Below are positions 21,079 through 47,079 of a stretch of DNA of 64,000 nucleotides, one piece after another. Numbering within the stretch: position 1 is the first letter of the stretch; every line of letters starts with the position of its first letter. The stretch spans positions 885,708 to 949,707 of the forward strand of contig NW_025814042.1 in NCBI RefSeq assembly GCF_021917145.1, given 5' to 3'. Source of the stretch: Hypomesus transpacificus. Its lineage: Eukaryota; Chordata; Actinopteri; Osmeriformes; Osmeridae. The notes below the pieces were generated by a model. It did not search any database and was not told where the DNA came from. It worked only from the letters and a program-made list of their open reading frames with translations. A program made the position numbers and the translations under genes.

Positions 21079-21624
21079 TGTTGGAGCCTCGAAAGTGGTT
21101 CTTAGTGTAGCAAGAATTAACAGGCTTGGAGTCAGGAGATTGATTGCAATGGCTTCATTTATTGCCAGGTATTTTGGAATCATACGCAAAGCTTCTCTAG
21201 CCAGAGAAGTCTCTCATACGCCGAGCCTCCCTAGCCAGGGAAGTCCGACATGTATTCAATAGACAAGAACTTTTATACAGTCTTACTACGTCACACACAT
21301 CTGTTGGCAATTAGACACACACACAGTTTGTTCCAGATAAACAGATATCCTCCCTCACTTGGCTTATTCTTACACAAACCATGATTGTTCTTGCCCAACT
21401 CGTGGCTGTTGTTTGCACAACCCGTGGTTGTTTTCTTACGACCCTACCAGGTCATTCTGATCTGATTTCCTCTCTGGAAAGAACATTCTAAGGGAGGGGG
21501 AAAGTGACTCTCCCAGCTCACTCTTTCCCCACTGAGTGTGGGGATAAACAATCTTCCTCTCCTCATCTGCCCCCGTCCTAGCTGACTCCTCTCTTGAGGT
21601 CACAAGGTCACAAAAACCCCAACA
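21079..21624 (-). repeat. 5' LTR of the retrovirus
   Basis: It has the same length and ends as the left LTR. TATAAAA is near 21271-21277 on the minus strand. The flanking CTAC at 21625-21628 is the second target-site copy. Confidence 0.92.
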
Positions 21625-24600
21625 CTACCTACCCCAGCTCCGTCTACCATCCCACCACCACTCCATAGGAAGGACCAAGACGTCAGCCAGTGGAACTGCT
21701 CCCAAAACCAGAAGATGTGGATGAAAACGGAGATGGAATCTTTGGGACTTTGGCCAGGATCTCGACCTGTACGACATCTGATGGGTATGATCTCCTTGTG
21801 GCGTCATCCACCCCAACCAGAACTCATAGATCCAGTCTATGATATGCCATCTCCCAAGTACTTCCAGCTACATCCATTTTTCATTTGGAAACCGGAGCAT
21901 GCAATTATGGAGAGAGTGAGGAACAATTACATTTTACCCTGCCTCTACGGCTGCTCCACTCCCCATGTGGTTTCGGCAGGAGTTGGGCGACCCCGGGTCA
22001 TTATTGGGACCAGCGGCCAGTACTACATCTTGGCCTCTCGGCTGAACTGCAAAACATGCAAGAGGTACTGGTTCGCTGACAAACCCCAGTGGATGGAAAT
22101 GCTGCCACAACTCTTCTGCAACATCCTGCCAGCATTTCTCACCCACAAAAAAGCCATCTGCAAAACGGTAATGGATGAGCTATGTCGCACAGGGAGGTCG
22201 GCCACAGACATGGCAAATCAGCTGAATGAGGCTCTGCACCTACGGCACGAGAGGGCACACCTTGCCTATCTGTTGACTGTACAGAATGTGCAGGATGGTG
22301 ACTCCGGCCTGTATGGGCAGAAGACCATCACAGGCACCATGCGGAAGGACAACACCCCTGATCCTTTTGGTACCTACGACTCGACCAATGGCTGGTGTGG
22401 GGTAGCCATCAGTCCCCGCTACCTAGTAGACTGCCTCGTACATGAGTACCACCGTAAGGAGAAGACCCTCACTCTTGTCCTGCAAGGCACTTTTGGGCAG
22501 GTCATTCGAGCTGACCACACTCGGAAGGTGGCCCGGAAGGTGGTGCTCTCATCCGGAACCATGTCCTCGTACTCCGTGATGAACGAGAACTGGATGATCC
22601 TGTCCTGGGTGATGCTTCAGTCAGAGAGTGACCGGTCGCTGGAACCCATGTACGAGGGGCTGTCTCATCGCTACGACTCAGCTGGACTGCCGAAGGCAAA
22701 GTACCAGTGGGTGGACAGGTAAAAGCCAGATCACAGCTTTTGTATTCAATTTTACACAGGACAGAAACATTTAGCAAAATATAATATACTATATAGTTAC
22801 AGGGGATTGTATGCAGGTGACATAGAAACTCAAAGCCTATCATTAATTTGTGTTTTTCTCTCTCTCTCTCACTGTGTGAGCAGGGACTGCTGTGCTGATT
22901 TCCGGATCCCAAACCTTGACCCCCAGGAGCACCTCCACTGGGATTCATGGAAAACCACGGAAGCTGTGGTGACGGGGGCAACATCTGGGAACCTGACCAA
23001 CTCATGTGCCTCCCGGGGAAAGTACAGCAGCGACATCACTGTCAAACTGGACCTTTTCCATTGCATGCGGCGGTTCTCAAGGGAGTGCGTGTCAGAGCAC
23101 CATACACTCCACAGCACTTTCTGCCGGTTCCTCAGTGCTGCATTCTGTGTGGTGGACCAGACTGACCTGCAGAGGCTGACGGAGGCATACGCCTTCTGTG
23201 GGATCAGGCCTGCCAATCCCACAAAGCAGCATATCTGGGAACACTGCCGGACCAAGGTACTTTTGAATGTTCATAACATTAATAATGCTTGTTATGTTAT
23301 AACATAAATAAGAAAAATACGTAATTTCATTTCTGTATTCCGTTAATGCATATGAAATCATCTGTAATCCTTTTTTCAATTGTAAGGTACCACAACCTAC
23401 AGAGCTGCTGGAGAGAGTGGAGAGCGTCCTCAAACAGTTCTTCCTAGAGACAGATCCCAATGGTGTCTACCTCTTCAAGCCGTCCATGCTAAAGCTGTGG
23501 AGACTCCAGAGGGTGCACATCCTGAGAGGCTGCCTGAGTGATCCAGAGGAGGAGGACGGGATCCTTTACAGACACGGAGGAACAGTGCAGCTCAACCACG
23601 TCAAGGGTGAAGGAGCAGCTGTCCCAGTGTGGATCCCTGTGAGAGGCACCTCCCAACAGGAGGGTTTCCATGCGCATCAGGCACGGTGGATCACAGGCAA
23701 CTGTGTTTCCTCCGAGCTCTTCCAGGCTCAAGGCATGATGGGCATGGCACGGTGGAACTTTCAGAGATTGGTGGATCTGAAGTTACCGGACGTGAAGCTA
23801 CCTGCAGTCTTTGACCCAGTGCTCATCATGCAGCTGAACGTGGCATCGGAGAGGGTGACCGGCCATGCCAAATACCCTGCACTGCAGTTGAGCCACAGAG
23901 ACACAGGGGAGAGATTTGGCCTGCAGTATGTGGAGCCAGGCTGTCGCCCTGTGCCTCTGGACTGGTTCAAGAACAGGTCTCAGGGGGCTGATGAAGAGGG
24001 AGCTGAGGAAGAGGAGGCTGACCGGGTGGTCGCCGACCAGCCCTTCATCACGCCAGAAGACAATGTAAGTTGCATTGATAGCACTTTGTAATTTACCCTT
24101 TCAAACTTACACAGGTTATACCTGCAGACTAAGCACACATGTTTAAATAATTGAAATGCATGTACTTCCTCTGTTGCAGGATGACGTCTTTGGTGAGGCT
24201 TCTGGAGTCTTGCCCCAGACCACAGTCCAGCCAGTCCAATCAACCTCCACTCAAGGTAATTTTGCAAATATCCCTCATTTTACACATCTGCTAGTAAAAT
24301 GTGAATGAGATGCAACACTCAAGTTGCACTGATGCTTGATAGAGCAAGATTTTATATTTATTATGTGTTATTTCTACTTGTCTTCAGGTCTGCCAACGAC
24401 ACCTGCACTGCCCATCACAGCAAACCCGCGTGCTGCTCGCACAATGTCCATCAAGGCAGGCGGGCTTCTGTACATCTTGGACCATTCCCGGTGGACAGAG
24501 GCCATGAAGGAGGTCATCGACGGCCTCATAGGAATCCACCAAGGGTCGAAGGATTTCCTGCAGAGGGTGGACAGTGACTACGCTGGCTTGGTGCAGGCTG

Positions 24601-26470: not shown

Positions 26471-26552
26471 TGGCAGCGGTGGGATTGGAACCCACGCCTC
26501 CAGAGAGACTGCAGCCTAAATCCAGCGCCTTGGACCGCTCGGCCACGCCACC
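26471..26552 (-). pseudogene. tRNA-Leu(TAG), degenerate
   Basis: The 82-nt gene has the GGTTCCAATCC box B mutation, an anticodon-stem mismatch (CTGGA with TGCAG) and an acceptor change (GGTGGCG). Confidence 0.8.
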
Positions 26553-26858
26553 CCATTGTCAGCTGTTGGCCACCCGAGCTTCTCCCAATACTGATCAATA
26601 CTGAACTAGTAACAGATTTCCCCAAACCTGGTTTATACTTCTGTCGAGTTTGGAACACTTGGCCTAGTCTGGATGTGTTCGACCGTGACAAGAGACGAAA
26701 TGCCTCTTCATGGTTTGTATTGTCTGGTGATGTAGCCACTATACCTACGATGCCCCAAGAAAGCATCAACGACAACACAACATGTCGAGCCACAGTTCAC
26801 CTTTCAAAACCACTTACTGACGTGAAAGCAAGGAGACGACGTTAGCACCCTACAAAAC

Positions 26859-26940
26859 TGGCAGCTGTGGGATTCGAACCCACGCCTCCAGAGAGACTGG
26901 AGCCTAAATCCAGCGCCTTGGACCGCTCGGCCACGCTACC
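26859..26940 (-). tRNA. tRNA-Leu(TAG), one acceptor mismatch
   Basis: Full length, with anticodon TAG and intact box A and box B. The acceptor 3' strand has A instead of C at position 66, opposite G7. It is possibly functional. Confidence 0.75.
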
Positions 26941-27075
26941 CCGTTGTCAGCTGTTGGCCACCCGAGCTCCAGCCGAAGATGATCGATCGTCCAGGAGCTC
27001 ACATGACTTTTTAATGCCCGCAAGCAGTTGAATGACACAAGATAAAAGATAAAAGAGAAATCTTTCTTAAGGTTC

Positions 27076-27147
27076 TGCATTGTTTGGGAATCTAACCCGG
27101 GTCAACTGCTTGGAAGGCAGCTATGCTTGCCACTATACCACCAATGC
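27076..27147 (-). pseudogene. tRNA-Gly(TCC), degenerate
   Basis: The 72-nt gene has anticodon TCC, but box B reads GGTTAGATTCC and the acceptor 3' strand is ACAATGC, giving a mismatch with GCATTGG. Confidence 0.75.
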
Positions 27148-27491
27148 CCACAACATCCTCCACTATGCACAGCATTTCGAGCCACGGTTCAACTTTTCAC
27201 ACCACCTACTGACGTCCAACTAATAAGAGGTTGCCCTAAACCTGGGTCCTGTACTACGAATCAAGATTCCCGTTCAGGGAATGTGTTTTTAGACCGCCAT
27301 CAGAGGCCAAGAAGCTGGAAAATCTCTTCATTCTGGTGCCTTGAGAGCCTCTGCTGCATGTTGGGCATAACTTTCCAAGGTGGCTTTCGAAGATGCTGTC
27401 GACCCCACCTTGAAGCACCTATTCGAAGAGAAAACGGAAGCCTGAGCCAGTCCCGCCTGATGAATCAAGGCGCCGTGCCTTGGTCGGTCAA

Positions 27492-27565
27492 GGCGCCGTG
27501 GCTTAGTCGGTCAAAGCGCCTGTCTAGTAAACAGGAGATCCTGAGTTCAAATCTCAGCGGTGCCT
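27492..27565 (+). tRNA. tRNA-Thr(AGT), unit A
   Basis: The 74-nt tRNA has anticodon AGT in CTAGTAA, stem CTGTC/ACAGG region intact, acceptor GGCGCCG/CGGTGCC and T-stem CTGAG/CTCAG. A TTTTT terminator follows at once. The sequence before it repeats the first part of the gene (see findings). Confidence 0.88.
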
Positions 27566-27671
27566 TTTTAGGCGCAGGCCTCAGCTCAATTTTGCATCAA
27601 ACTTAGAGGTGCAACCGAGACAAAGGTTGCGTGCCACAAGCCACGCTCTGCAGTTTGAACACAAAGCTCAC

Positions 27672-27707
27672 ACAGGGACTTGAACGCTGGACCCTCCGAT
27701 TAAAAGC
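27672..27707 (-). pseudogene. tRNA-Lys 3' half, unit A
   Basis: The minus strand reads CTTTTAATC...GGGTCCAGCGTTCAAGTCCCTGT, the anticodon loop to T-arm of tRNA-Lys without the 5' half or acceptor. Confidence 0.7.
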
Positions 27708-27789
27708 TTCCCTTGTTTCCTCAAAGTCAGGTACATAAGAGAGACACATTTGAATGTGGCCTGCTTCATCCCACAGTTTGAACACCCTT

Positions 27790-27862
27790 CGCCCGAACAG
27801 GGACTTGGACCCTGGACCCTCAGATTAAAAGTCTGATGCTCTGCCGACTGAGCTATCCGGGC
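27790..27862 (-). tRNA. tRNA-Lys(TTT), unit A, T-loop change
   Basis: The 73-nt tRNA has anticodon TTT in CTTTTAA, an intact acceptor GCCCGGA and intact box A. Box B reads GGGTCCAAGTCC, with T54 changed to C, which may weaken transcription. Confidence 0.8.
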
Positions 27863-28010
27863 TCTGGAAAGGCAGGACACGCTGAGCTTTTCGTGGAACA
27901 TCTACATGTACATCTCCTCCACCACACAAACCCCTAAGGATCGTGTGGCCAATCCCTCGCAAGCATGCCGGTGCACCTCTGAGCCCGGATAACCTTTCTG
28001 TCGAGTCAGG

Positions 28011-28084
28011 GTCTCTGTGGCGCAATTGGCTAGCGCGTTCGGCTGTTAACCGAAAGGATGGTGGTTCGAGCCCACCCAGGGACG
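28011..28084 (+). tRNA. tRNA-Asn(GTT), unit A
   Basis: 74 nt, anticodon GTT in CTGTTAA, box A and box B (GGTTCGAGCCC) intact, acceptor GTCTCTG/CAGGGAC. It is almost identical to the vertebrate consensus. Confidence 0.92.
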
Positions 28085-28170
28085 AACGTCTTCTTGTTTG
28101 CCTCTGTTGCGGGTCTTGCCTGTGTGACTATGAGCTGTGCCGCCGTCGGAGCTGGAAATTCTCTGAAAAA

Positions 28171-28205
28171 TACTGTACTCCGCTCTACCCACTGAGCTGT
28201 CAAAG
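28171..28205 (-). pseudogene. tRNA-Tyr-like 5' half, unit A
   Basis: The minus strand reads CTTTGACAGCTCAGTGGGTAGAGCGGAG, matching the acceptor, D-arm and start of the anticodon arm of tRNA-Tyr. The 3' half is not recognisable downstream. Confidence 0.5.
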
Positions 28206-28345
28206 GGTGAGCGAGTGGGACGCTTTATTCGCGAGGAAGCCGTGCGATCCCCCATTGTCAGTTCAGATACAAAAGAAGAAAGCCTTTGCTGACGCCCGAC
28301 TCTTTTAACCCCTTTAAGGAGTAGCTTCGCACATATGTGATCGTT

Positions 28346-28658
28346 CGAAAGCGGGCCCCACGGCGTAGCGTCGCACGTGTGATTTCCAACATTCCAACTG
28401 CCTGTTTTCCCATAGACCAAAACTATATGACAAACGCCATAGTATGGCTTTGAAATGTACAATGTGGAAGCTAACAAGCAAATGTAAATGTCAACGTAAA
28501 GTAACCCTAGCAGGTAGTAGCATCGCTACGAGTATTATGCTAGGTTGCTAAGTAACGGAAGCCAACTAAGGCTGGCTAGCTTCCGTTTCGGAACAATAAC
28601 TCACTCTGGTGGGCGCGTGGGAAATATTTAGCACTCACGCATCTAAGAGTTGAGTCTC
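28346..28658. other. Spacer between tRNA units, no gene seen
   Basis: Unique spacer with no open frame or RNA gene recognised. It marks what normally follows unit A. In unit B the corresponding place is taken by telomeric repeats. Confidence 0.5.
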
Positions 28659-28730
28659 TCCCTGGTGGTGTAGTGGCTGGGATTTGGCGCTCTCACCGCC
28701 ACGGCCCGGTTTCCATTCCCAGTCAGGGAA
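28659..28730 (+). pseudogene. tRNA-Glu(CTC), degenerate
   Basis: The 72-nt gene has anticodon CTC in GCTCTCA. Box B is damaged (GGTTTCCATTCC) and other stem positions are changed. Confidence 0.8.
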
Positions 28731-28814
28731 TTTTAGGTTCAGTGGAAACCTTTGACCAGCTGCGTTTTGCAACGTGGTCGTCATCTTTGACAGCGAGCAG
28801 AGGAAGGCAAGCTC

Positions 28815-28886
28815 TCCCTGGTGTTCTAGTGGCTAGGATTCGGCGCTCTCACCGCCACGGCCCGGGTTCGATTCCCGGTCAGGGTA
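28815..28886 (+). tRNA. tRNA-Glu(CTC)
   Basis: 72 nt, anticodon CTC, intact box B (GGTTCGATTCC). The last acceptor pair is lost (T1 opposite T72). It is directly followed by duplication unit B. Confidence 0.8.
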
Positions 28887-29119
28887 TGTGTTTTTAGACC
28901 GCCATCAGAGGCCAAGAAGCTGGAAAATCTCTTCATTCTGGTGCCTTGAGAGCCTCTGCTGCATGTTGGGCATAACTTTCCAAGGTGGCTTTCGAAGATG
29001 CTGTCGACCCCACCTTGAAGCACCTATTCGAAGAGAAAACGGAAGCCTGAGCCAGTCCCGCCTGATGAATCAAGGCGCCGTGGCTTGGTGGGTCAAGGCG
29101 CCGTGGCTTGGTCGGTCAA

Positions 29120-29193
29120 GGCGCCGTGGCTTAGTCGGTCTAAGCGCCTGTCTAGTAAACAGGAGATCCTGAGTTCAAATCTCAGCAGTGCCT
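29120..29193 (+). tRNA. tRNA-Thr(AGT), unit B, acceptor mismatch
   Basis: Same gene as at 27492, with one acceptor mismatch (CAGTGCC for CGGTGCC). A TTTTT terminator follows. Two additional copies of the 5' portion precede it. Confidence 0.82.
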
Positions 29194-29299
29194 TTTTAGG
29201 CGCAGGCCTCAGCTCAATTTTGCATCAAAGTCAGAGGTGCAACGGAGACAAAGGTTGCGTGCCACAAGCCACGCTCTGCAGTTTGAACACAAAGCTCAC

Positions 29300-29335
29300 A
29301 CAGGGACTTGAACGCTGGACCCTCCGATTAAAAGC
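29300..29335 (-). pseudogene. tRNA-Lys 3' half, unit B
   Basis: Copy of the truncated tRNA-Lys at 27672-27707. Confidence 0.7.
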
Positions 29336-29417
29336 TTCCCTTGTTTCCTCAAAGTCAGGTACATAAGAGAGACACATTTGAATGTGGCCTGCTTCATCCC
29401 ACAGTTTGAACACCCTT

Positions 29418-29490
29418 CGCCCGAACAGGGACTTGAACCCTGGACCCTCAGATTAAAAGTCTGATGCTCTGCCGACTGTGCTATCCGGGC
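29418..29490 (-). tRNA. tRNA-Lys(TTT), unit B, box A change
   Basis: 73 nt, anticodon TTT, with box B intact (GGGTTCAAGTCC), unlike unit A. The D-stem/box A reads TAGCACAGTCGG instead of TAGCTCAGTCGG. Each of the two Lys copies is therefore damaged at a different promoter box. Confidence 0.8.
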
Positions 29491-29638
29491 TCTGGAAAGG
29501 GAGGGCACGCTGAGCTTTTCGTGGAACATCTACATGTACATCTCCTCCACCACACAAACCCCTAAGGATCGTGTGGCCAATCCCTCGCAAGCATGCCGGT
29601 GCACCTCTGAGCCCGGATAACCTTTATGTCGAGTCAGG

Positions 29639-29712
29639 GTCTCTGTGGCGCAATTGGCTAGCGCGTTCGGCTGTTAACCGAAAAGATGGTGGTTCGAGCC
29701 CACCCAGGGACG
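29639..29712 (+). tRNA. tRNA-Asn(GTT), unit B
   Basis: As the unit A gene, with one variable-loop difference (AAAGATGG for AAGGATGG). It looks functional. Confidence 0.92.
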
Positions 29713-29833: not shown

Positions 29834-29976
29834 GGTGAGCGAGTGGGACGCTTTATTCGCGAGGAAGCCGTGCGATCCCCCATTGTCACTCCAGTTCAGA
29901 TACAAAAGAAGAAAGCCTTTGCTGACGCCCGACTCTTTTAACCCCTTTAAGGAGTAGCTTCGCACATATGTGATCG

Positions 29977-30063
29977 TTAGGGTTAGGGTTAGGGTCAGGG
30001 TTAGGGGGTTAGGGTTAGGGTCAGGGTTAGGGGGGGGGGGGGGGTTAGGGTTAGGGTTAGGGG

Positions 30064-30095
<32 letters not shown>

Positions 30096-30134
30096 AGGGT
30101 TAGGGTTAGGGTTAGGGTTAGGGTTAGGGTTAGG
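29977..30134 (+). repeat. Interstitial telomeric repeat tract 1 (TTAGGG)n
   Basis: About 158 bp of TTAGGG with TCAGGG and TTAGGGG variants and a run of 15 G (30030-30044). The G-rich strand is +, as at a right-hand chromosome end. It joins unique tRNA-cluster DNA to the 3.9-kb satellite. Confidence 0.95.
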
Positions 30135-30596
30135 GAGCAGTTTCTGAAGACCCCCACGCCAAGCAGTTCAGTACTTCGACCCGCATAGGCTAGGGGTAAA
30201 TGCACAAGTATCCTAGACCCATGTAGATCATCCATCAGAGGGGGTAGGGGAATGGACCCCCTCCAGGACCCCAAAGGAGTCCCAGGCCTGTAGACCTTGT
30301 CACGCTTGCTACCCGAGGTAAATAAATGCCTAAGCACTAAGAGGACGTGAGCAACCGACGGGTACATGGATAACCCACCCCCGTATCCACTTACGGACGT
30401 GTGCAAACCACCAGGTCTAAGCAGGAGCATGCTCTGAAGTCTTCCGTCCCCACAAGCAAGGTAACCCCCGAGGAGGAGAGGTAGGAGACCTCTGGTGTCA
30501 AGGTTCACGCGTGGGTAGCAGAGGTGACCGGTAACCGTAGCACATGCTACATCCGAGTGAAGACACTGGGGGCTCCTCACATCCAATCCTAAGCGC

Positions 30597-30627
30597 GGAG
30601 CGCATCGGCGCAAAGCGCCGATTGCGC
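30597..30627. repeat. Hairpin insertion found only in array-edge units
   Basis: A 31-bp segment containing CGCATCGGCGC AAA GCGCCGATTGCG forms a stem with a 3-nt loop. It is absent from the units starting at 34066, 37966, 41860 and 45756. A shortened form (GAAGCGCCGATTGCGC) is in the unit starting at 63011. Confidence 0.85.
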
Positions 30628-31191
30628 GGAGCCAAAGGTGTCCCAGCGGCAACGGTGATTCTGCGAAGTCCAAACAGGGTCCTCTTGAAGAGTAGTGGCA
30701 CTGTCGTGAGTGAATGGATGCACATGAGTGTGTGAGTGCGTGCTATACCTGTGCCCAGAAGCCAACTCAATCTGAAAGTCTAAAAAAGGCCTGCCTGAAA
30801 AAGAGAGAATAACCTATACCAAAACCAGGGCGTGTTTGAAGAGTAGAAGACATCTGCACCTCATGTGCACCTGGGGAGAGAGCGGGTTAGTGGACAGGAC
30901 ACACGAGTGCCGTGAAAGCAAAATGGGGGTGCTCAGAAGAAGAGCACCGCAGGTGTACATGAGTACAGGAAGGACAGGGCCTGTGAGAAGGGAAAAAGAG
31001 ACAATGCGTGTGGATGTGGAGATGTGTGTGTGCGAGCGAGAGGAGAGTGTGAGAGTGTGTAGTAGGCAGAGCAAGAGAGGGGGCTCCTCGGAGCCAAAGC
31101 AAGGTTGTAGTCAAGAACGCAGAACTCCACTCCCCGGGCGGTGCCTCCTGCAGGCCCATGCCAGAACATTAAACAGGGATATGTGAGGTCC

Positions 31192-31247
31192 TAACCGGCC
31201 ACGACTGCAGTTTCGCTCTCCTAAGAGCTCATCAGGTGACAAAGTTA
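31192..31247 (-). ncRNA. Hammerhead ribozyme, 3.9-kb unit 1
   Basis: Read on the minus strand, the conserved core CUGAUGA (31235-31229) is followed by a perfect stem II, GCUCU-UAGG-AGAGC, then GAA and A15.1 (31211). Stem III is short (ACU-GC-AGU), and the cleavage site is GUC with cleavage after C at 31203. Stem I has five pairs (GUCAC with GUGGC, one G-U). After an internal loop there are four more (UAAC with GUUA). Open stem I and minimal stem III make it a type I hammerhead like those of Penelope-like elements and the schistosome and newt satellites. It would cut minus-strand array transcripts into unit-length RNAs. Confidence 0.88.
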
Positions 31248-31454
31248 TGAAATAAAACCCCCAACGCAGGACAAGGGCCGTTCCTAGGACTATGGACTAT
31301 CAAGAACTCAGGGGTGACGACCACAAAAAGGGGGGGTGTTCGTACCCCCTGTGTCCGTGGGCGCCCACCAGAATCGGTCATCTCAATTAATCAGCTAGGG
31401 AAAAGAGGATAGAGGAGAGAGAGAGAGAATGCACAGAGTAGCAAAATGTATGGA

Positions 31455-31458
<4 letters not shown>

Positions 31459-31493
<35 letters not shown>

Positions 31494-31494
31494 T
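31459..31494. repeat. (GT)n microsatellite of the 3.9-kb unit
   Basis: A GT dinucleotide run ending in TATGTGTGTATG. It is shorter in the third unit (by 6 bp relative to the first two) and in later units, and this accounts for most of the length difference between units. Confidence 0.9.
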
Positions 31495-32201
31495 ATGCAA
31501 GGTGAGAGGAACCCAGAAGGCATCTGTAAAAGAAAAAGTGCACAAATTAGGGTGGATGTAGTGCCGTAATGGACCTGTGAAGGAAAAAGTATACAGATCA
31601 AGGTGGATGCAGCGCAGCAGTGGATCTGTGAAAGAAAAGAAAGGCATGGATCAAACACAGTAAAGAGGCCAGAGAAAGCCGTAGACACCGAAATCACAGG
31701 CAAGGTCAGAAGGGGTTGAGGTTAGAGCAGAGGGGGGACTTAGGGTTAGATAAGAAAAAGGAGGGGTTGAGGTCAGGGTAAAGACAGAGGGACAGTAGAA
31801 GAGAAGACCCAGAGTCTAGACTTAAATTTAGGTAAGAGCAGGGAGAGCAGAGTAGGAGGAGTGGACAGATAAGGAGATCAAGGAAGGAGCCAAGTGAGAG
31901 AGGAAGACCCAAGACAAGCACACAAGTGAAAGGAAAACAAACACAACACCGTCCACGTGAAAAACCTAGGAAAAAAGAAAACGTGTGTGACAATCAGTAT
32001 GGGATGTGGGTGGACAGGAGAGACGAGCTCCACAGCATGAGCGTGGAGGTGTGATGGATGGACTCACAGATGGCCCCAGGTGAAGGAACGTCGAGGAGAG
32101 AATCCAGGCCACGTAGGGGAGGAAGCGTCGATGGGAGGCCAGCCTTGTCCAGAGCTTTGAGAGCGCTGGCAGAATCCAAAGAGAGCAGGTCTACTACCCA
32201 G

Positions 32202-32214
32202 AGGTCAAAGGTCA
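32202..32214 (+). promoter_or_regulatory. Perfect DR1 (AGGTCA A AGGTCA), 3.9-kb unit
   Basis: Two AGGTCA half sites spaced by one base match the binding site of RXR/PPAR/HNF4-type nuclear receptors. A second perfect copy is at 33373-33385 and both recur in every complete unit. Use as a regulatory site is unproven. Confidence 0.4.
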
Positions 32215-33372
32215 GAGGCTCCCAAAGGTCAGCACCGCACGCACGCCAAGTCCTCCAGACACAACAGCCACCTACGGTGCAGGGTGTTTAAGGGTCACGT
32301 CCGATATTCCCCCAGCCTGGCAAAGGGTCACAAACTGATCTTCCCCCGCGCACACACACCACCCATACAAACAGAAGTGCCCGGTCAAAACCGCCACCCA
32401 GGCCCCAGCGACAGGCTAGATACTAAGGTCACATCCGATATTCCCGAGCACCATTACCTTTTTCAGCCATACCCCAGTGACGGTAGACCAAGGCTCCTGC
32501 AGCAAGCCAGAGGCCCCACAGGAGGCCCGAGCATCCGGGGTGAAAACGTAGCCGCAGAACGTGACCTCCCAGAGCCAAAGGCCAGAGACGGTCAGAGAGC
32601 AGAAACTGTCCAGTGGATGGTGCCATAGAGAGTCGGTGGAGCAGCTCAGCTTGTGTAGTTTGACCCAGTGGGGACACGTCCTCCCGGGTCCAAGGAAGGA
32701 CGGCGGGCAGACGAACCAGAGCTGCGAGCAGGTTCAGCCTGGGGTTGAAGAAAAGCGCAGTGCAACACAGACGCAGGACCCGCCATGGTAGAGGTGAATA
32801 CAATTCTGTAGGGATGCGGTCAGACTACCATCAACAGGTCTCCCGATGACAGAGTACAACTGGTTCCACACTACGCCGATCGCCGCCCTGAGAGGTCCTC
32901 CCCCTGCATACTGCTATTTAGCCCATTCGTCGATACCATAGCAGACAGACACCCCCGTCTAGAACAGACGTTTGCGGAGTGAATGCGGAGGACGTCAGGG
33001 ACAGTTTGTCGATTGAAGCCTAGATAGGAAGAGGGGCCAGATGCGTAGTGAAACGCATCAATGACGGTATGTTTTGCCCACGACAGGAAGTGCTGTCTCC
33101 CTCCCAGAAGTCTCGTCATCGGCACAGAGTGGCTCGGTGATGTCCTGCCCCGGGATAGGCATGGCACCGGGAGGAGCGTGGCCTCGTTCACACCCATGGA
33201 TCCAGAGAAGGCCGTCTGGGGGCGGGGTAAGGACACGTCCACGGCCGGTCCAGTAGACACAGGAAAGCTGGGCCCGACACTCCATGATGTGACGAGACCG
33301 GTTCCGACTGCGAGCGTGAGCCCCGTGCCGTCACTAGAAGACGGGAGAGGCCGAGAGGAGCGGAGAGGCCAG

Positions 33373-33385
33373 AGGTCAAAGGTCA
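33373..33385 (+). promoter_or_regulatory. Second perfect DR1 in the 3.9-kb unit
   Basis: Same 13-mer as at 32202-32214, also preceded by CAG. The two sites may share an origin by local duplication. Confidence 0.4.
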
Positions 33386-35091
33386 ATAGGAGTGCCCAGC
33401 AGGTTGGCCCCCTGTTTAGGAGGGCCTTCTTCTGCGGGGGCGTGTTATAGGTGGGGGTAAGGCTATAGCAGGGTGGCCTCCTGACAGTCAGTGGTGCAGA
33501 GAACCTCTCTGTTCTTCAGCCAGAGAGCGGCGTGAGGAGAGGAGCCCCCCACAGCTCTAAACTGGGCCACAGCTAAAATACGTGTTGTGTGTTAAGGCGT
33601 GCGAGGCCCGTCCCCTTGGGACTATAGCCGTATACCCCGTAGAGACGTTCCGTTGGCCCGCCCGCTGGGTCTCCAACATAACCGCGAGGATATGGCAGGA
33701 TGAAATGAAAGGCCGTGAGTTGTCACGTGCAGTTACGCCATTTCAACACCGTTTCCCTCGCTGAGTCGACCCCATTGTGGGCCAGTCCCCCTCCAAAGTA
33801 GTAGGACGACAATCTTCTTTGCCTGCATGCTAATGCGAGACAGTGACAACACTCACAGTCTGTGTCCAGCCCAGGGAGAACCGCAGCGCACTCGATAGGG
33901 AAGCGTCCATCTTCCAGACTGCGCTGTGTTGCACGTGGGGACTGAGCGCCCGTGGAGAGAGGTGGGGCTCGCGCAACAAGGAATCCGACATTCCCCTGAG
34001 GGGCAATCCGGTGGCCCCCCAATGAGGCCTCAAGGCATGGCTCTACATACGCAGGCAGGGTTAGGGAGCAGTTTCTGAAGACCCCCACGCCAAGCAGTTC
34101 AGTACTTCGACCCGCATAGGCTAGGGGTAAATGCACAAGTATCCTAGACCCATGTAGATCATCCATCAGAGGGGGTAGGGGAATGGACCCCCTCCAGGAC
34201 CCCAAAGGAGTCCCAGGCCTGTAGACCTTGTCACGCTTGCTACCCGAGGTAAATAAATGCCTAAGCACTAAGAGGACGTGAGCAACCGACGGGTACATGG
34301 ATAACCCACCCCCGTATCCACTAACGGACGTGTGCAAACCACCAGGTCTAAGCAGGAGCATGCTCTGAAGTCTTCTGTCCCCACAAGCAAGGTAACCCCC
34401 GAGGAGGAGAGGTAGGAGACCTCTGGTGTCAAGGTTCACGCGTGGGTAGCAGAGGTGACCGGTAGCCGTAGCACATGCTACATCCGAGTGAAGACACTGG
34501 GGGCTCCTCACATCCAATCCTAAGCGCGGAGCCAAAGGTGTCCCAGCGGCAACGGTGATTCTGCGAAGTCCAAACAGGGTCCTCTTGAAGAGTAGTGGCA
34601 CTGTCGTGAGTGAATGGATGCACATGAGTGTGTGAGTGCGTGCTATACCTGTGCCCAGAAGCCAACTCAATCTGAAAGTCTAAAAAAGGCCTGCCTGAAA
34701 AAGAGAGAATAACCTATACCAAAACCAGGGCGTGTTTGAAGAGTAGAAGACATCTGCACCTCATGTGCACCTGGGGAGAGAGCGGGTTAGTGGACAGGAC
34801 ACACGAGTGCCGTGAAAGCAAAATGGGGGTGCTCAGAAGAAGAGCACCGCAGGTGTACATGAGTACAGGAAGGACAGGGCCTGTGAGAAGGGAAAAAGAG
34901 ACAATGCGTGTGGATGTGGAGATGTGTGTGTGCGAGCGAGAGGAGAGTGTGAGAGTGTGTAGTAGGCAGAGCAAGAGAGGGGGCTCCTCGGAGCCAAAGC
35001 AAGGTTGTAGTCAAGAACGCAGAACTCCACTCCCCGGGCGGTGCCTCCTGCAGGCCCATGCCAGAACATTAAACAGGGATATGTGAGGTCC

Positions 35092-35147
35092 TAACCGGCC
35101 ACGACTGCAGTTTCGCTCTCCTAAGAGCTCATCAGGTGACAAAGTTA
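35092..35147 (-). ncRNA. Hammerhead ribozyme, 3.9-kb unit 2
   Basis: Sequence identical to the unit 1 ribozyme; cleavage after the C at 35103 on the minus strand. Confidence 0.88.
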
Positions 35148-35354
35148 TGAAATAAAACCCCCAACGCAGGACAAGGGCCGTTCCTAGGACTATGGACTAT
35201 CAAGAACTCAGGGGTGACGACCACAAAAAGGGGGGGTGTTCGTACCCCCTGTGTCCGTGGGCGCCCACCAGAATCGGTCATCTCAATTAATCAGCTAGGG
35301 AAAAGAGGATAGAGGAGAGAGAGAGAGAATGCACAGAGTAGCAAAATGTATGGA

Positions 35355-35393
<39 letters not shown>

Positions 35394-38300
35394 TATGCAA
35401 GGTGAGAGGAACCCAGAAGGCATCTGTAAAAGAAAAAGTGCACAAATTAGGGTGGATGTAGTGCCGTAATGGACCTGTGAAGGAAAAAGTATACAGATCA
35501 AGGTGGATGCAGCGCAGCAGTGGATCTGTGAAAGAAAAGAAAGGCATGGATCAAACACAGTAAAGAGGCCAGAGAAAGCCGTAGACACCGAAATCACAGG
35601 CAAGGTCAGAAGGGGTTGAGGTTAGAGCAGAGGGGGGACTTAGGGTTAGATAAGAAAAAGGAGGGGTTGAGGTCAGGGTAAAGACAGAGGGACAGTAGAA
35701 GAGAAGACCCAGAGTCTAGACTTAAATTTAGGTAAGAGCAGGGAGAGCAGAGTAGGAGGAGTGGACAGATAAGGAGATCAAGGAAGGAGCCAAGTGAGAG
35801 AGGAAGACCCAAGACAAGCACACAAGTGAAAGGAAAACAAACACAACACCGTCCACGTGAAAAACCTAGGAAAAAAGAAAACGTGTGTGACAATCAGTAT
35901 GGGATGTGGGTGGACAGGAGAGACGAGCTCCACAGCATGAGCGTGGAGGTGTGATGGATGGACTCACAGATGGCCCCAGGTGAAGGAACGTCGAGGAGAG
36001 AATCCAGGCCACGTAGGGGAGGAAGCGTCGATGGGAGGCCAGCCTTGTCCAGAGCTTTGAGAGCGCTGGCAGAATCCAAAGAGAGCAGGTCTACTACCCA
36101 GAGGTCAAAGGTCAGAGGCTCCCAAAGGTCAGCACCGCACGCACGCCAAGTCCTCCAGACACAACAGCCACCTACGGTGCAGGGTGTTTAAGGGTCACGT
36201 CCGATATTCCCCCAGCCTGGCAAAGGGTCACAAACTGATCTTCCCCCGCGCACACACACCACCCATACAAACAGAAGTGCCCGGTCAAAACCGCCACCCA
36301 GGCCCCAGCGATAGGCTAGATACTAAGGTCACATCCGATATTCCCGAGCACCATTACCTTTTTCAGCCATACCCCAGTGACGGTAGACCAAGGCTCCTGC
36401 AGCAAGCCAGAGGCCCCACAGGAGGCCCGAGCATCCGGGGTGAAAACGTAGCCGCAGAACGTGACCTCCCAGAGCCAAAGGCCAGAGACGGTCAGAGAGC
36501 AGAAACTGTCCAGTGGATGGTGCCATAGAGAGTCGGTGGAGCAGCTCAGCTTGTGTAGTTTGACCCAGTGGGGACACGTCCTCCCGGGTCCAAGGAAGGA
36601 CGGCGGGCAGACGAACCAGAGCTGCGAGCAGGTTCAGCCTGGGGTTGAAGAAAAGCGCAGTGCAACACAGACGCAGGACCCGCCATGGTAGAGGTGAATA
36701 CAATTCTGTAGGGATGCGGTCAGACTACCATCAACAGGTCTCCCGATGACAGAGTACAACTGGTTCCACACTACGCCGATCGCCGCCCTGAGAGGTCCTC
36801 CCCCTGCATACTGCTATTTAGCCCATTCGTCGATACCATAGCAGACAGACACCCCCGTCTAGAACAGACGTTTGCGGAGTGAATGCGGAGGACGTCAGGG
36901 ACAGTTTGTCGATTGAAGCCTAGATAGGAAGAGGGGCCAGATGCGTAGTGAAACGCATCAATGACGGTATGTTTTGCCCACGACAGGAAGTGCTGTCTCC
37001 CTCCCAGAAGTCTCGTCATCGGCACAGAGTGGCTCGGTGATGTCCTGCCCCGGGATAGGCATGGCACCGGGAGGAGCGTGGCCTCGTTCACACCCATGGA
37101 TCCAGAGAAGGCCGTCTGGGGGCGGGGTAAGGACACGTCCACGGCCGGTCCAGTAGACACAGGAAAGCTGGGCCCGACACTCCATGATGTGACGAGACCG
37201 GTTCCGACTGCGAGCGTGAGCCCCGTGCCGTCACTAGAAGACGGGAGAGGCCGAGAGGAGCGGAGAGGCCAGAGGTCAAAGGTCAATAGGAGTGCCCAGC
37301 AGGTTGGCCCCCTGTTTAGGAGGGCCTTCTTCTGCGGGGGCGTGTTATAGGTGGGGGTAAGGCTATAGCAGGGTGGCCTCCTGACAGTCAGTGGTGCAGA
37401 GAACCTCTCTGTTCTTCAGCCAGAGAGCGGCGTGAGGAGAGGAGCCCCCCACAGCTCTAAACTGGGCCACAGCTAAAATACGTGTTGTGTGTTAAGGCGT
37501 GCGAGGCCCGTCCCCTTGGGACTATAGCCGTATACCCCGTAGAGACGTTCCGTTGGCCCGCCCGCTGGGTCTCCAACATAACCGCGAGGATATGGCAGGA
37601 TGAAATGAAAGGCCGTGAGTTGTCACGTGCAGTTACGCCATTTCAACACCGTTTCCCTCGCTGAGTCGACCCCATTGTGGGCCAGTCCCCCTCCAAAGTA
37701 GTAGGACGACAATCTTCTTTGCCTGCATGCTAATGCGAGACAGTGACAACACTCACAGTCTGTGTCCAGCCCAGGGAGAACCGCAGCGCACTCGATAGGG
37801 AAGCGTCCATCTTCCAGACTGCGCTGTGTTGCACGTGGGGACTGAGCGCCCGTGGAGAGAGGTGGGGCTCGCGCAACAAGGAATCCGACATTCCCCTGAG
37901 GGGCAATCCGGTGGCCCCCCAATGAGGCCTCAAGGCATGGCTCTACATACGCAGGCAGGGTTAGGGAGCAGTTTCTGAAGACCCCCACGCCAAGCAGTTC
38001 AGTACTTCGACCCGCATAGGCTAGGGGTAAATGCACAAGTATCCTAGACCCATGTAGATCATCCATCAGAGGGGGTAGGGGAATGGACCCCCTCCAGGAC
38101 CCCAAAGGAGTCCCAGGCCTGTAGACCTTGTCACGCTTGCTACCCGAGGTAAATAAATGCCTAAGCACTAAGAGGACGTGAGCAACCGACGGGTACATGG
38201 ATAACCCACCCCCGTATCCACTAACGGACGTGTGCAAACCACCAGGTCTAAGCAGGAGCATGCTCTGAAGTCTTCTGTCCCCACAAGCAAGGTAACCCCC

Positions 38301-38991
38301 GAGGAGGAGAGGTAGGAGACCTCTGGTGTCAAGGTTCACGCGTGGGTAGCAGAGGTGACCGGTAGCCGTAGCACATGCTACATCCGAGTGAAGACACTGG
38401 GGGCTCCTCACATCCAATCCTAAGCGCGGAGCCAAAGGTGTCCCAGCGGCAACGGTGATTCTGCGAAGTCCAAACAGGGTCCTCTTGAAGAGTAGTGGCA
38501 CTGTCGTGAGTGAATGGATGCACATGAGTGTGTGAGTGCGTGCTATACCTGTGCCCAGAAGCCAACTCAATCTGAAAGTCTAAAAAAGGCCTGCCTGAAA
38601 AAGAGAGAATAACCTATACCAAAACCAGGGCGTGTTTGAAGAGTAGAAGACATCTGCACCTCATGTGCACCTGGGGAGAGAGCGGGTTAGTGGACAGGAC
38701 ACACGAGTGCCGTGAAAGCAAAATGGGGGTGCTCAGAAGAAGAGCACCGCAGGTGTACATGAGTACAGGAAGGACAGGGCCTGTGAGAAGGGAAAAAGAG
38801 ACAATGCGTGTGGATGTGGAGATGTGTGTGTGCGAGCGAGAGGAGAGTGTGAGAGTGTGTAGTAGGCAGAGCAAGAGAGGGGGCTCCTCGGAGCCAAAGC
38901 AAGGTTGTAGTCAAGAACGCAGAACTCCACTCCCCGGGCGGTGCCTCCTGCAGGCCCATGCCAGAACATTAAACAGGGATATGTGAGGTCC

Positions 38992-39047
38992 TAACCGGCC
39001 ACGACTGCAGTTTCGCTCTCCTAAGAGCTCATCAGGTGACAAAGTTA
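38992..39047 (-). ncRNA. Hammerhead ribozyme, 3.9-kb unit 3
   Basis: Sequence identical to the unit 1 ribozyme; cleavage after the C at 39003 on the minus strand. Confidence 0.88.
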
Positions 39048-39256
39048 TGAAATAAAACCCCCAACGCAGGACAAGGGCCGTTCCTAGGACTATGGACTAT
39101 CAAGAACTCAGGGGTGACGACCACAAAAAGGGGGGGTGTTCGTACCCCCTGTGTCCGTGGGCGCCCACCAGAATCGGTCATCTCAATTAATCAGCTAGGG
39201 AAAAGAGGATAGAGGAGAGAGAGAGAGAATGCACAGAGTAGCAAAATGTATGGACA

Positions 39257-39287
<31 letters not shown>

Positions 39288-42200
39288 TATGCAAGGTGAG
39301 AGGAACCCAGAAGGCATCTGTAAAAGAAAAAGTGCACAAATTAGGGTGGATGTAGTGCCGTAATGGACCTGTGAAGGAAAAAGTATACAGATCAAGGTGG
39401 ATGCAGCGCAGCAGTGGATCTGTGAAAGAAAAGAAAGGCATGGATCAAACACAGTAAAGAGGCCAGAGAAAGCCGTAGACACCGAAATCACAGGCAAGGT
39501 CAGAAGGGGTTGAGGTTAGAGCAGAGGGGGGACTTAGGGTTAGATAAGAAAAAGGAGGGGTTGAGGTCAGGGTAAAGACAGAGGGACAGTAGAAGAGAAG
39601 ACCCAGAGTCTAGACTTAAATTTAGGTAAGAGCAGGGAGAGCAGAGTAGGAGGAGTGGACAGATAAGGAGATCAAGGAAGGAGCCAAGTGAGAGAGGAAG
39701 ACCCAAGACAAGCACACAAGTGAAAGGAAAACAAACACAACACCGTCCACGTGAAAAACCTAGGAAAAAAGAAAACGTGTGTGACAATCAGTATGGGATG
39801 TGGGTGGACAGGAGAGACGAGCTCCACAGCATGAGCGTGGAGGTGTGATGGATGGACTCACAGATGGCCCCAGGTGAAGGAACGTCGAGGAGAGAATCCA
39901 GGCCACGTAGGGGAGGAAGCGTCGATGGGAGGCCAGCCTTGTCCAGAGCTTTGAGAGCGCTGGCAGAATCCAAAGAGAGCAGGTCTACTACCCAGAGGTC
40001 AAAGGTCAGAGGCTCCCAAAGGTCAGCACCGCACGCACGCCAAGTCCTCCAGACACAACAGCCACCTACGGTGCAGGGTGTTTAAGGGTCACGTCCGATA
40101 TTCCCCCAGCCTGGCAAAGGGTCACAAACTGATCTTCCCCCGCGCACACACACCACCCATACAAACAGAAGTGCCCGGTCAAAACCGCCACCCAGGCCCC
40201 AGCGACAGGCTAGATACTAAGGTCACATCCGATATTCCCGAGCACCATTACCTTTTTCAGCCATACCCCAGTGACGGTAGACCAAGGCTCCTGCAGCAAG
40301 CCAGAGGCCCCACAGGAGGCCCGAGCATCCGGGGTGAAAACGTAGCCGCAGAACGTGACCTCCCAGAGCCAAAGGCCAGAGACGGTCAGAGAGCAGAAAC
40401 TGTCCAGTGGATGGTGCCATAGAGAGTCGGTGGAGCAGCTCAGCTTGTGTAGTTTGACCCAGTGGGGACACGTCCTCCCGGGTCCAAGGAAGGACGGCGG
40501 GCAGACGAACCAGAGCTGCGAGCAGGTTCAGCCTGGGGTTGAAGAAAAGCGCAGTGCAACACAGACGCAGGACCCGCCATGGTAGAGGTGAATACAATTC
40601 TGTAGGGATGCGGTCAGACTACCATCAACAGGTCTCCCGATGACAGAGTACAACTGGTTCCACACTACGCCGATCGCCGCCCTGAGAGGTCCTCCCCCTG
40701 CATACTGCTATTTAGCCCATTCGTCGATACCATAGCAGACAGACACCCCCGTCTAGAACAGACGTTTGCGGAGTGAATGCGGAGGACGTCAGGGACAGTT
40801 TGTCGATTGAAGCCTAGATAGGAAGAGGGGCCAGATGCGTAGTGAAACGCATCAATGACGGTATGTTTTGCCCACGACAGGAAGTGCTGTCTCCCTCCCA
40901 GAAGTCTCGTCATCGGCACAGAGTGGCTCGGTGATGTCCTGCCCCGGGATAGGCATGGCACCGGGAGGAGCGTGGCCTCGTTCACACCCATGGATCCAGA
41001 GAAGGCCGTCTGGGGGCGGGGTAAGGACACGTCCACGGCCGGTCCAGTAGACACAGGAAAGCTGGGCCCGACACTCCATGATGTGACGAGACCGGTTCCG
41101 ACTGCGAGCGTGAGCCCCGTGCCGTCACTAGAAGACGGGAGAGGCCGAGAGGAGCGGAGAGGCCAGAGGTCAAAGGTCAATAGGAGTGCCCAGCAGGTTG
41201 GCCCCCTGTTTAGGAGGGCCTTCTTCTGCGGGGGCGTGTTATAGGTGGGGGTAAGGCTATAGCAGGGTGGCCTCCTGACAGTCAGTGGTGCAGAGAACCT
41301 CTCTGTTCTTCAGCCAGAGAGCGGCGTGAGGAGAGGAGCCCCCCACAGCTCTAAACTGGGCCACAGCTAAAATACGTGTTGTGTGTTAAGGCGTGCGAGG
41401 CCCGTCCCCTTGGGACTATAGCCGTATACCCCGTAGAGACGTTCCGTTGGCCCGCCCGCTGGGTCTCCAACATAACCGCGAGGATATGGCAGGATGAAAT
41501 GAAAGGCCGTGAGTTGTCACGTGCAGTTACGCCATTTCAACACCGTTTCCCTCGCTGAGTCGACCCCATTGTGGGCCAGTCCCCCTCCAAAGTAGTAGGA
41601 CGACAATCTTCTTTGCCTGCATGCTAATGCGAGACAGTGACAACACTCACAGTCTGTGTCCAGCCCAGGGAGAACCGCAGCGCACTCGATAGGGAAGCGT
41701 CCATCTTCCAGACTGCGCTGTGTTGCACGTGGGGACTGAGCGCCCGTGGAGAGAGGTGGGGCTCGCGCAACAAGGAATCCGACATTCCCCTGAGGGGCAA
41801 TCCGGTGGCCCCCCAATGAGGCCTCAAGGCATGGCTCTACATACGCAGGCAGGGTTAGGGAGCAGTTTCTGAAGACCCCCACGCCAAGCAGTTCAGTACT
41901 TCGACCCGCATAGGCTAGGGGTAAATGCACAAGTATCCTAGACCCATGTAGATCATCCATCAGAGGGGGTAGGGGAATGGACCCCCTCCAGGACCCCAAA
42001 GGAGTCCCAGGCCTGTAGACCTTGTCACGCTTGCTACCCGAGGTAAATAAATGCCTAAGCACTAAGAGGACGTGAGCAACCGACGGGTACATGGATAACC
42101 CACCCCCGTATCCACTAACGGACGTGTGCAAACCACCAGGTCTAAGCAGGAGCATGCTCTGAAGTCTTCTGTCCCCACAAGCAAGGTAACCCCCGAGGAG

Positions 42201-42885
42201 GAGAGGTAGGAGACCTCTGGTGTCAAGGTTCACGCGTGGGTAGCAGAGGTGACCGGTAGCCGTAGCACATGCTACATCCGAGTGAAGACACTGGGGGCTC
42301 CTCACATCCAATCCTAAGCGCGGAGCCAAAGGTGTCCCAGCGGCAACGGTGATTCTGCGAAGTCCAAACAGGGTCCTCTTGAAGAGTAGTGGCACTGTCG
42401 TGAGTGAATGGATGCACATGAGTGTGTGAGTGCGTGCTATACCTGTGCCCAGAAGCCAACTCAATCTGAAAGTCTAAAAAAGGCCTGCCTGAAAAAGAGA
42501 GAATAACCTATACCAAAACCAGGGCGTGTTTGAAGAGTAGAAGACATCTGCACCTCATGTGCACCTGGGGAGAGAGCGGGTTAGTGGACAGGACACACGA
42601 GTGCCGTGAAAGCAAAATGGGGGTGCTCAGAAGAAGAGCACCGCAGGTGTACATGAGTACAGGAAGGACAGGGCCTGTGAGAAGGGAAAAAGAGACAATG
42701 CGTGTGGATGTGGAGATGTGTGTGTGCGAGCGAGAGGAGAGTGTGAGAGTGTGTAGTAGGCAGAGCAAGAGAGGGGGCTCCTCGGAGCCAAAGCAAGGTT
42801 GTAGTCAAGAACGCAGAACTCCACTCCCCGGGCGGTGCCTCCTGCAGGCCCATGCCAGAACATTAAACAGGGATATGTGAGGTCC

Positions 42886-42941
42886 TAACCGGCCACGACT
42901 GCAGTTTCGCTCTCCTAAGAGCTCATCAGGTGACAAAGTTA
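42886..42941 (-). ncRNA. Hammerhead ribozyme, 3.9-kb unit 4
   Basis: Sequence identical to the unit 1 ribozyme; cleavage after the C at 42897 on the minus strand. Confidence 0.88.
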
Positions 42942-43150
42942 TGAAATAAAACCCCCAACGCAGGACAAGGGCCGTTCCTAGGACTATGGACTATCAAGAA
43001 CTCAGGGGTGACGACCACAAAAAGGGGGGGTGTTCGTACCCCCTGTGTCCGTGGGCGCCCACCAGAATCGGTCATCTCAATTAATCAGCTAGGGAAAAGA
43101 GGATAGAGGAGAGAGAGAGAGAATGCACAGAGTAGCAAAATGTATGGACA

Positions 43151-43183
<33 letters not shown>

Positions 43184-47046: not shown

Positions 47047-47079
<33 letters not shown>

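Follow-up and report, generated by a model that had tools for sequence, protein, structure and literature searches.

A predicted hammerhead ribozyme in telomere-joined Penelope-like elements and a non-coding 3.9-kb tandem unit of Hypomesus transpacificus

Layout of the window and of the tandem units

The window (the whole stretch of 64,000 nt that was analysed) is the end of contig C374 in an assembly of 437 Mb and 376 contigs. As seen in Table 1, it contains an array of 3.9-kb units (u39), a 2.9-kb array (u29) and the start of a further 3.9-kb unit, each carried by telomeric repeats; a (TTGGGG)n stretch lies within the window telomere tract at 62911-62976. The u39 array (30136-47370) consists of four complete units and a truncated fifth, and the first ~460 bp of unit 1 hold 3 base differences and a 31-bp insertion that set it apart from units 2-5. 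Six ORFs of the u39 unit were tried against Pfam and gave no match at E<=1, so that a recognisable reverse transcriptase (RT) is absent, and the unit is also without ORF1, a reading frame of the coding Penelope-like elements (PLEs) described below. The u29 array has a 574-aa ORF1 (minus strand, e.g. 49471-47747) that is homologous to the ORF1 of telomeric PLEs.

Table 1. Coordinates of telomeric tracts, tandem units and hammerhead (HHR) motifs in the window, and of one coding element on contig C376.
Feature	Contig	Position	Strand	Remark
Telomeric (TTAGGG)n	C374 (window)	29976-30135	+	G-rich strand on plus; carries the first unit
u39 unit 1	C374 (window)	30136-34066	-	3931 bp; RNA sense minus
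u39 unit 2	C374 (window)	34067-37966	-	3900 bp
u39 unit 3	C374 (window)	37967-41860	-	3894 bp
u39 unit 4	C374 (window)	41861-45756	-	3896 bp
u39 unit 5	C374 (window)	45757-47370	-	~1614 bp; truncated (5' in RNA sense), then telomere repeats
Seed GGGTTAGGG	C374 (window)	34058-34066	+	unit-unit junction; CCCUAACCC in RNA
Further seeds GGGTTAGGG	C374 (window)	37958-37966, 41852-41860, 45748-45756	+	
Telomeric repeats	C374 (window)	47371-47399	+	cap the 3.9-kb array and carry the next array
u29 array (2.9 kb)	C374 (window)	47400-62870	-	layout as u39; junction of GGGTTAGG with TTTGTGG
Telomeric repeats	C374 (window)	62871-63011	+	between the 2.9-kb array and the second 3.9-kb insertion
Further 3.9-kb unit	C374 (window)	63012-64000	-	start only; stopped by the contig end
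HHR copy 1	C374 (window)	31192-31247	-	in unit 1
Copy 1 stem I	C374 (window)	31240-31236 with 31202-31198	-	five pairs, one U.G
Copy 1 core CUGAUGA	C374 (window)	31235-31229	-	
Copy 1 stem II	C374 (window)	31228-31215	-	five pairs, loop UAGG
Copy 1 core GAA	C374 (window)	31214-31212	-	
Copy 1 stem III	C374 (window)	31211-31204	-	palindrome ACUGCAGU; three pairs, GC diloop
Copy 1 C17	C374 (window)	31203	-	GUC site; predicted cut 31203/31202
HHR copy 2	C374 (window)	35092-35147	-	identical
HHR copy 3	C374 (window)	38992-39047	-	identical
HHR copy 4	C374 (window)	42886-42941	-	identical
HHR copy 5	C374 (window)	46782-46837	-	identical; in the truncated last unit
HHR of coding element	C376	18761		
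ORF1 of coding element	C376	19360-22518		
RT/GIY-YIG frame	C376	22443-24713		
3' UTR	C376			
Telomere repeats	C376	26146-26187		3' side of the element
3.9-kb array	C376			3' side of the element

A hammerhead motif in the 3.9-kb array

The minus strand from 31247 to 31192 reads UAAC-UUU-GUCAC-CUGAUGA-GCUCU-UAGG-AGAGC-GAA-ACU-GC-AGU-C/GUGGC-CG-GUUA. The initial annotation had described this segment as a complete hammerhead, and every conserved core position (CUGANGA, GAA, A15.1-U16.1, H17) was found in it together with stems I-III and the GUC site. The cut that it had placed between 31203 and 31202 agrees with the core numbering. Stem I is extended, as had also been proposed, by an outer UAAC/GUUA helix across a UUU/CG internal loop, and stem II is closed by the loop UAGG; these are the loops between which a loop I-loop II contact may form. 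All four of the repeats reported to be unchanged are identical to copy 1, and the motif, said to occur in every complete unit, is present in each window unit that reaches the site; in the sixth unit (63012-64000) the contig ends 53 bases before it.

A strict descriptor (at least 4 pairs in stem I, 4 in stem II and 3 in stem III) matched the window five times on the minus strand, these being the array copies, and gave no match on the plus strand. There was also no match in 60 Mb of order-1 Markov random sequence, which corresponds to at most ~0.0064 expected matches per window at 95%. The Rfam scan of the window found no hammerhead at gathering level; the best match of a window copy was to RF02275 (HH9; 26.0 bits, E=0.0095 in an 18-kb stretch, cut-off 52 bits). 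Single-strand folding proved uninformative as evidence, since the hammerhead fold is not the minimum-energy fold (-9.0 kcal/mol, stem III not modelled, vs -14.7 kcal/mol) and the comparison with shuffles gave z of -0.84 for the 56-mer and -0.07 for 68 nt. The sameness of the five window copies was dropped as evidence of selection: whole units are nearly identical, differing by just a handful of bases and indels, and thus the identity of the five copies says nothing on selection.

Diverged relatives and covariation

A relaxed scan of the fetched loci detected a hammerhead in each of two other elements (L019, L017), and a search with a model, R1, built on six of the sequences aligned below (whose own R1 scores are therefore by construction) added one more hammerhead family (L053). 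The alignment comprises seven HHRs from five families of the same genome (three from family A and one each from B, C, F and G). In all 12 aligned pairs, 81/81 cells are standard pairs; neither the outer helix nor pair five of stem II enters this count, and with both included 93.8% of cells pair (six sequences). Changes on both sides were found in 5/12 pairs, spread over stems I, II and III, and variation in the core is limited to N7 and H17. None of 500 shuffles reached the observed covariation score, 3/500 matched the number of pairs with both-side changes, and when partners were slid along the seven-HHR alignment only 21-58% of cells paired.

The Rfam type I model, proposed earlier as a check, divides the families: the window copy stays below cut-off, and its family F relative is above that of RF00163 (35.5 vs 34 bits), accounting for the five loci over cut-off in the genome. 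Families C and B score 31.1 and 25.5 bits, and none of 14 control genomes had a match over cut-off (one weaker match). The diverged relatives give the decisive support for the predicted hammerhead identity, which rests on core and covariation, Rfam score aside, and on these grounds the proposal of a telomere-joined array carrying a type I-like hammerhead with minimal stem III is supported. It is extremely unlikely that the motif is a chance occurrence in a neutral satellite: the window copies do fall under the Rfam cut-offs, and their identity is silent on selection, but 60 Mb of random sequence held no match, hammerheads lie at homologous places where this was compared (A with B; A with F), and the compensatory changes across five families speak strongly against it.

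The stem III sequences ACUGCAGU, ACCGGU and ACCGCGGU each form a palindrome, and in the C82 copy (ACUACAGU) the palindrome is broken. A palindromic stem III suits dimeric action. Small PLE hammerheads are reported to cleave as dimers (Lunse et al. 2017), and the minimal, palindromic stem III of the fish HHR would resemble theirs.

Exact copies of the 33-nt core number at least 50, on 11 contigs. Allowing up to 3 mismatches raises the count to at least 52 by adding two inexact sites, which together have 3 substitutions (at N7, in the diloop of stem III, and in stem II, where a U-A pair is turned to a U.G wobble). A 16-nt piece common to families B and F occurs at at least 21 sites on six contigs, including four copies at 6889-bp spacing on C127 and three ~7.74 kb apart on C293. 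All these site counts are lower bounds, as more diverged motifs escape such searches. Compared with the window, the C14 HHR matches at 53/56 positions (neighbouring aligned 40-nt blocks mostly 80-98%, one 52%) and the C82 HHR at 54/56 (blocks 82-100%). In neither of these two copies is the HHR clearly more conserved than neighbouring sequence, and we therefore do not claim purifying selection on recent copies.

An interstitial copy on C26 (L012 6152-6871, at 4.3 Mb) has a 241-bp block including the HHR that is 99% identical to the window unit, and the part adjoining this block is 85% identical. Gene conversion, a fresh insertion or selection might account for the block.

Junctions with the telomere

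Among 15 proximal boundaries (C14 and C82 copies left out), 12 join TTAGGG to one fixed unit position, on nine contigs. Three boundaries depart from this: on C52 the array meets other DNA at unit position ~3718, C162 has an internal rearrangement, and the copy on C26 has no telomere run in the 9.9 kb read. The unit-unit junctions inspected carry GGGTTAGGG. Nine distal ends were placed, at window-unit positions ~778, 856, 1600-1613, 1614, 1721, 1767, 2238, 2359 and 3101; five others are concealed by contig ends or an N gap. Eight of the nine run into TTAGGG, at these varying positions and in two cases after a few filler bases, and one runs into other DNA. A recheck of six against another reference unit gave no placement for the end on C323 or for the first array on C69. 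The predicted cut of the hammerhead (unit position 1036/1037) coincides with 0/9 distal ends, so the template does not usually begin at an end made by this cut, and HHR-cut linear RNA is not favoured as the usual template. A fixed RNA 3' end on the telomere with a ragged, capped 5' end is the layout described for endonuclease-deficient PLEs in PMC3846280 and PMC6431247.

The coding elements were submitted to a prediction test, in which 7/9 RT copies had 3' flanks that run into CCCTAA repeats within 2 kb; the other two flanks have a single CCTAACCC and none within 1.97 kb, respectively. At the start of C27, ~2.4 kb of telomere sits directly on a truncated unit. The hammerhead itself is not required for attachment to telomeres: the 2.9-kb array is attached in the same way and no HHR was found in it with R1 and the descriptor over the window, nor was one found by R1 in L057, over the 2.15 kb that separates two RT copies belonging to the 741-aa family.

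Some copies (C13, C21, C26 and C14) sit 4-8 Mb inside large scaffolds. On C13, the telomere-joined array at 6.67-6.70 Mb (L001-L010), with seven HHRs, lies within a 14.85-Mb scaffold and ends at an N run; it is an interstitial telomere or a wrong scaffold join. We also note a variant (GGGTCA)n joined to unit position 144 (L025 3175-3245, C162), and another 3.9-kb unit start at C69:255443-255966 (99% over 524 bases) with no match to the 33-nt core (up to 3 mismatches) behind it: the unit is truncated or has lost the motif. Further telomere-joined families start with TTAGG followed by TTTGGCAATAGTGACGAGG or by TGTGGTAGTAATAACGAGG (L009, L011, L018, L021, L023), and the stretch behind these starts is common to those families.

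Coding Penelope-like elements on the same contigs

Reading frames with RT and GIY-YIG domains adjoin the 3.9-kb arrays on the same contigs. GIY-YIG was above the Pfam cut-off in L016, L022 and L023, RVT_1 was detected in L016 and L023 with scores under its cut-off, and two L013 frames (one of 644 aa) and the L017 ORF1 gave no Pfam match. The 757-aa RT/GIY-YIG frame of C376 was read by eye. We take the RT motifs of these neighbouring elements to be PLE-type. A protein search of the genome with the RT gave 64 matches, 8 of which cover residues 1-741 in an open frame, and among 8000 scored sequences 3002 were homologues at E<=1e-10, the named ones from fish (Salmo trutta, Corythoichthys, Pangasianodon, Coilia). 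Coding PLEs also occur in tandem, as seen from four open RT copies 5916 bp apart on C27 and from the four HHRs on C127.

The element on C376 (Table 1), mapped best of all, is complete as far as read. In RNA sense, u39 matches it in the leader around the HHR (381 nt, 72%, E 4e-49), in the 3' end (227 nt, 64%, E 7e-14) and in a piece between the two (80 nt, 71%, E 1e-5). Because its ends match the C376 PLE and its ORFs are without RT match, u39 is taken as a non-autonomous PLE derivative rather than a PLE proper. A plain satellite is ruled out by the leader and 3' end that match a coding PLE, and the earlier view of u39 as a stand-alone satellite had to be given up, as both unit ends are common to PLEs on the same contigs.

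The HHR of the coding elements lies ~600 nt (family F) or ~500 nt (family C) upstream of the ORF1 frame. ORF1 ends in a C-terminal domain with the pattern GDSN ... D-H-W (window 47747-49471, minus; L011 4909-6651; L013, L016, L017 and L037), which is SGNH/GDSL-like by motif; the ORFs tried gave no Pfam match. The Ser and His of the motif are kept in four coding PLEs, and the 2.9-kb array (GDTN, DPVLW) and L011 (GDKN, DPVLW) have neither, their frame being still open. Hairpins resembling the histone 3' stem-loop (RF00032; 27.6 and 23.0 bits, cut-off 34) were seen in the window at 49537-49581 (minus) and 52428-52472, and at 1471-1517 (+) of L057. In both the 2.9-kb array and the 741-aa PLE family, telomeric families without an HHR match, they precede ORF1, and they are possibly a signal in place of the hammerhead leader of the other families.

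Proposed life cycle and origin of the arrays

Taken from these sequence comparisons, the hammerhead very probably belongs to the leader of a telomere-attaching PLE family, of which u39 would be a non-autonomous member, joined to TTAGGG ends when the telomere primes its reverse transcription and then capped by new telomere repeats. The shared sequence suggests that a PLE RT mobilises u39 in trans. In the proposed cycle, the minus strand of the unit would be transcribed, and CCCUAACCC in the RNA would pair with the 3' TTAGGG overhang, as the recurrent junction suggests. The PLE reverse transcriptase, acting in trans, would then extend the chromosome end through the unit. Synthesis would halt at varied points and telomerase would cap the new end, in line with the variable ends that are followed by TTAGGG. 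The hammerhead, likely dimerising through the palindrome of stem III, would probably process multimers of the RNA into monomers and possibly circles.

How the tandem arrays form was approached by comparing units over 1091 shared columns (C26 row left out). Within arrays, the median difference is 1 base (50 pairs, range 0-5), and between arrays it is 5 bases (446 pairs, range 0-12), with 126/446 between-array pairs differing by just 0-2 bases; units are thus more alike within arrays than between, and arrays are not cleanly distinct. Units 1-3 of C323 have 0 mismatches, the first unit included, and unit 1 of C13 deviates by 3-4 bases. The period is 3894-3931 bp in the window, 3924 bp on C323 and mostly 3929 bp on C13. 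As multi-unit arrays run through the HHR site, the template must have been uncut, religated or DNA.

The last of these has close to an even chance of being the main route, with single retrotransposed units amplified at the DNA level (break-induced replication, copying as rolling-circle DNA, or unequal exchange from seed to seed) and the hammerhead inherited from the PLE without a part in building the arrays. The deviating first units of the window and of C13, the near-identical units on different contigs and the 2.9-kb array, which has the same layout and in which no HHR was found, all fit with such amplification, and a roll-and-spread process is described for yeast telomeres in PMC3486848. 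DNA-level amplification would have to come on top of retroposition, since alone it leaves unexplained why PLE ends are shared and why PLE genes have the same junctions.

The function of the hammerhead is a related question, and the role of PLE hammerheads has been called unknown (PMC7761336). Processing of multimeric transcripts would, by analogy with the Anolis PLE, be its most likely role here. A role in the PLE life cycle other than circularisation has somewhat less than an even chance: the HHR may trim the 5' end of read-through array transcripts or expose the start of ORF1, perhaps in a protein-dependent manner. Its distance of ~600 nt (family F) or ~500 nt (family C) from ORF1 would suit this, and the Anolis PLE HHR is reported (PMC11167929) to cleave only when protein is present and to be dispensable for insertion in vitro. 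Against it, u39 has no ORF1, yet the copies read across the site keep the core, an observation biased by the choice of loci through that core.

Telomere-primed rolling-circle reverse transcription is rather unlikely as the origin of the arrays. Here the hammerhead would cut multimers, tRNA ligase would close the 3.9-kb monomer, and the circle with CCCUAACCC would be copied repeatedly, giving an array in one event. Several observations agree with this: arrays begin at the seed and continue for several units, differences within arrays are fewer than between them (medians of 1 and 5 bases), units 1-3 of C323 are without mismatch, periods vary between several arrays, and every multi-unit array read continues across the cut site, a requirement if the template was a ligated circle. 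Ligase-closed HHR circles have moreover been reported for metazoan retrozymes (PMC7229834). The 126/446 between-array pairs that differ by 0-2 bases, the first units that deviate on C13 (by 3-4 bases) and in the window array (by 3 bases plus a 31-bp indel), and the 2.9-kb array, with its same layout and no HHR found, count against it. The earlier claim of circularisation is not supported as stated, given that 0/9 placed ends are at the cleavage site and that unit 1 is unlike units 2-5. Circularisation of cut monomers is possible, and circle-templated synthesis and DNA-level expansion can both have occurred. We consider it unlikely that a vertebrate telomere is extended by an RNA system other than telomerase, in the full combination of HHR-made 3.9-kb RNA circles, a telomerase-like CCCUAACCC template and an endonuclease-bearing, telomere-homing Penelope RT that lays down a whole array per event.

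Comparison with known systems

PLE hammerheads, telomeric HHR-bearing PLEs of rotifers and hammerhead tandem repeats are already known. The initial annotation had looked to newt and schistosome satellites for kinship, but the nearest systems are the PLE HHRs and the rotifer Terminons. As described in PMC6431247, the Terminons/Athena elements of bdelloid rotifers are, like the fish elements, PLEs at chromosome ends with HHR motifs, an RNA whose 3' end carries the telomere repeat in reverse complement, 5'-truncated copies that are telomere-capped, head-to-tail arrays, and an SGNH/GDSL-like accessory ORF (a likeness by motif only). They differ in being endonuclease-deficient and up to 40 kb long, whereas the fish RT frame retains a C-terminal GIY-YIG; in their 3' HHR, which abuts the telomere repeat while the fish HHR is ~1.04 kb (u39) or ~7.4 kb (C376) upstream of it; and in that the fish system has a non-autonomous 3.9-kb member and a vertebrate host. 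The fish elements suggest that the life style of the rotifer Terminons does not need the loss of the endonuclease. A common ancestry of telomerase and the reverse transcriptases of PLEs is held likely in the literature (PMC3846280).

Poseidon PAc of Anolis (PMC11167929) resembles the fish elements in its RT with C-terminal GIY-YIG, its tandem copies and an HHR near the ORF, and differs in that it cuts AT-rich DNA; telomere joining is not mentioned in the available part of that source. The metazoan non-LTR retrozymes and the newt/axolotl HHR repeats (PMC7229834) share with u39 the non-coding tandem units with one type I HHR, and the amphibian repeats also the short stem III. The same source proposes PLEs as the mobilising partner of metazoan retrozymes. 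Retrozyme RNAs are ~170-400 nt long and the available text of PMC7229834 does not mention telomere joining, in contrast to the fish unit of 3894-3931 bp with its PLE 3' end.

Our literature search covered few subscription papers and is weak evidence of absence; it found neither a telomere-joined PLE in a vertebrate, endonuclease-bearing or not, nor a hammerhead in a vertebrate telomeric repeat. Anolis also has the retroelement Tx1_Acar, a LINE rather than a PLE. Like the fish elements, Tx1_Acar is a vertebrate telomere-associated retroelement, and no HHR is mentioned in the part of PMC10088271 that was available. A single genome here has telomere-joined open-frame PLEs, a non-coding passenger that shares their HHR leader and 3' end, and related families that gave no HHR match; the use of the hammerhead to the PLE and the origin of PLE tandem arrays thereby become testable by comparison within one animal.

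Other features of the window

Fourteen tRNA genes, in duplicated blocks of ~0.4-1.1 kb, are found at 6214-7284 and 26471-29712. An ORF with DUF6729 (60.1 bits, cut-off 27) at 21598-22722 (+) is probably part of a mobile element, and 10414-13710 (+) is occupied by a LINE-like open frame of 1098 aa that has endonuclease and RT domains.
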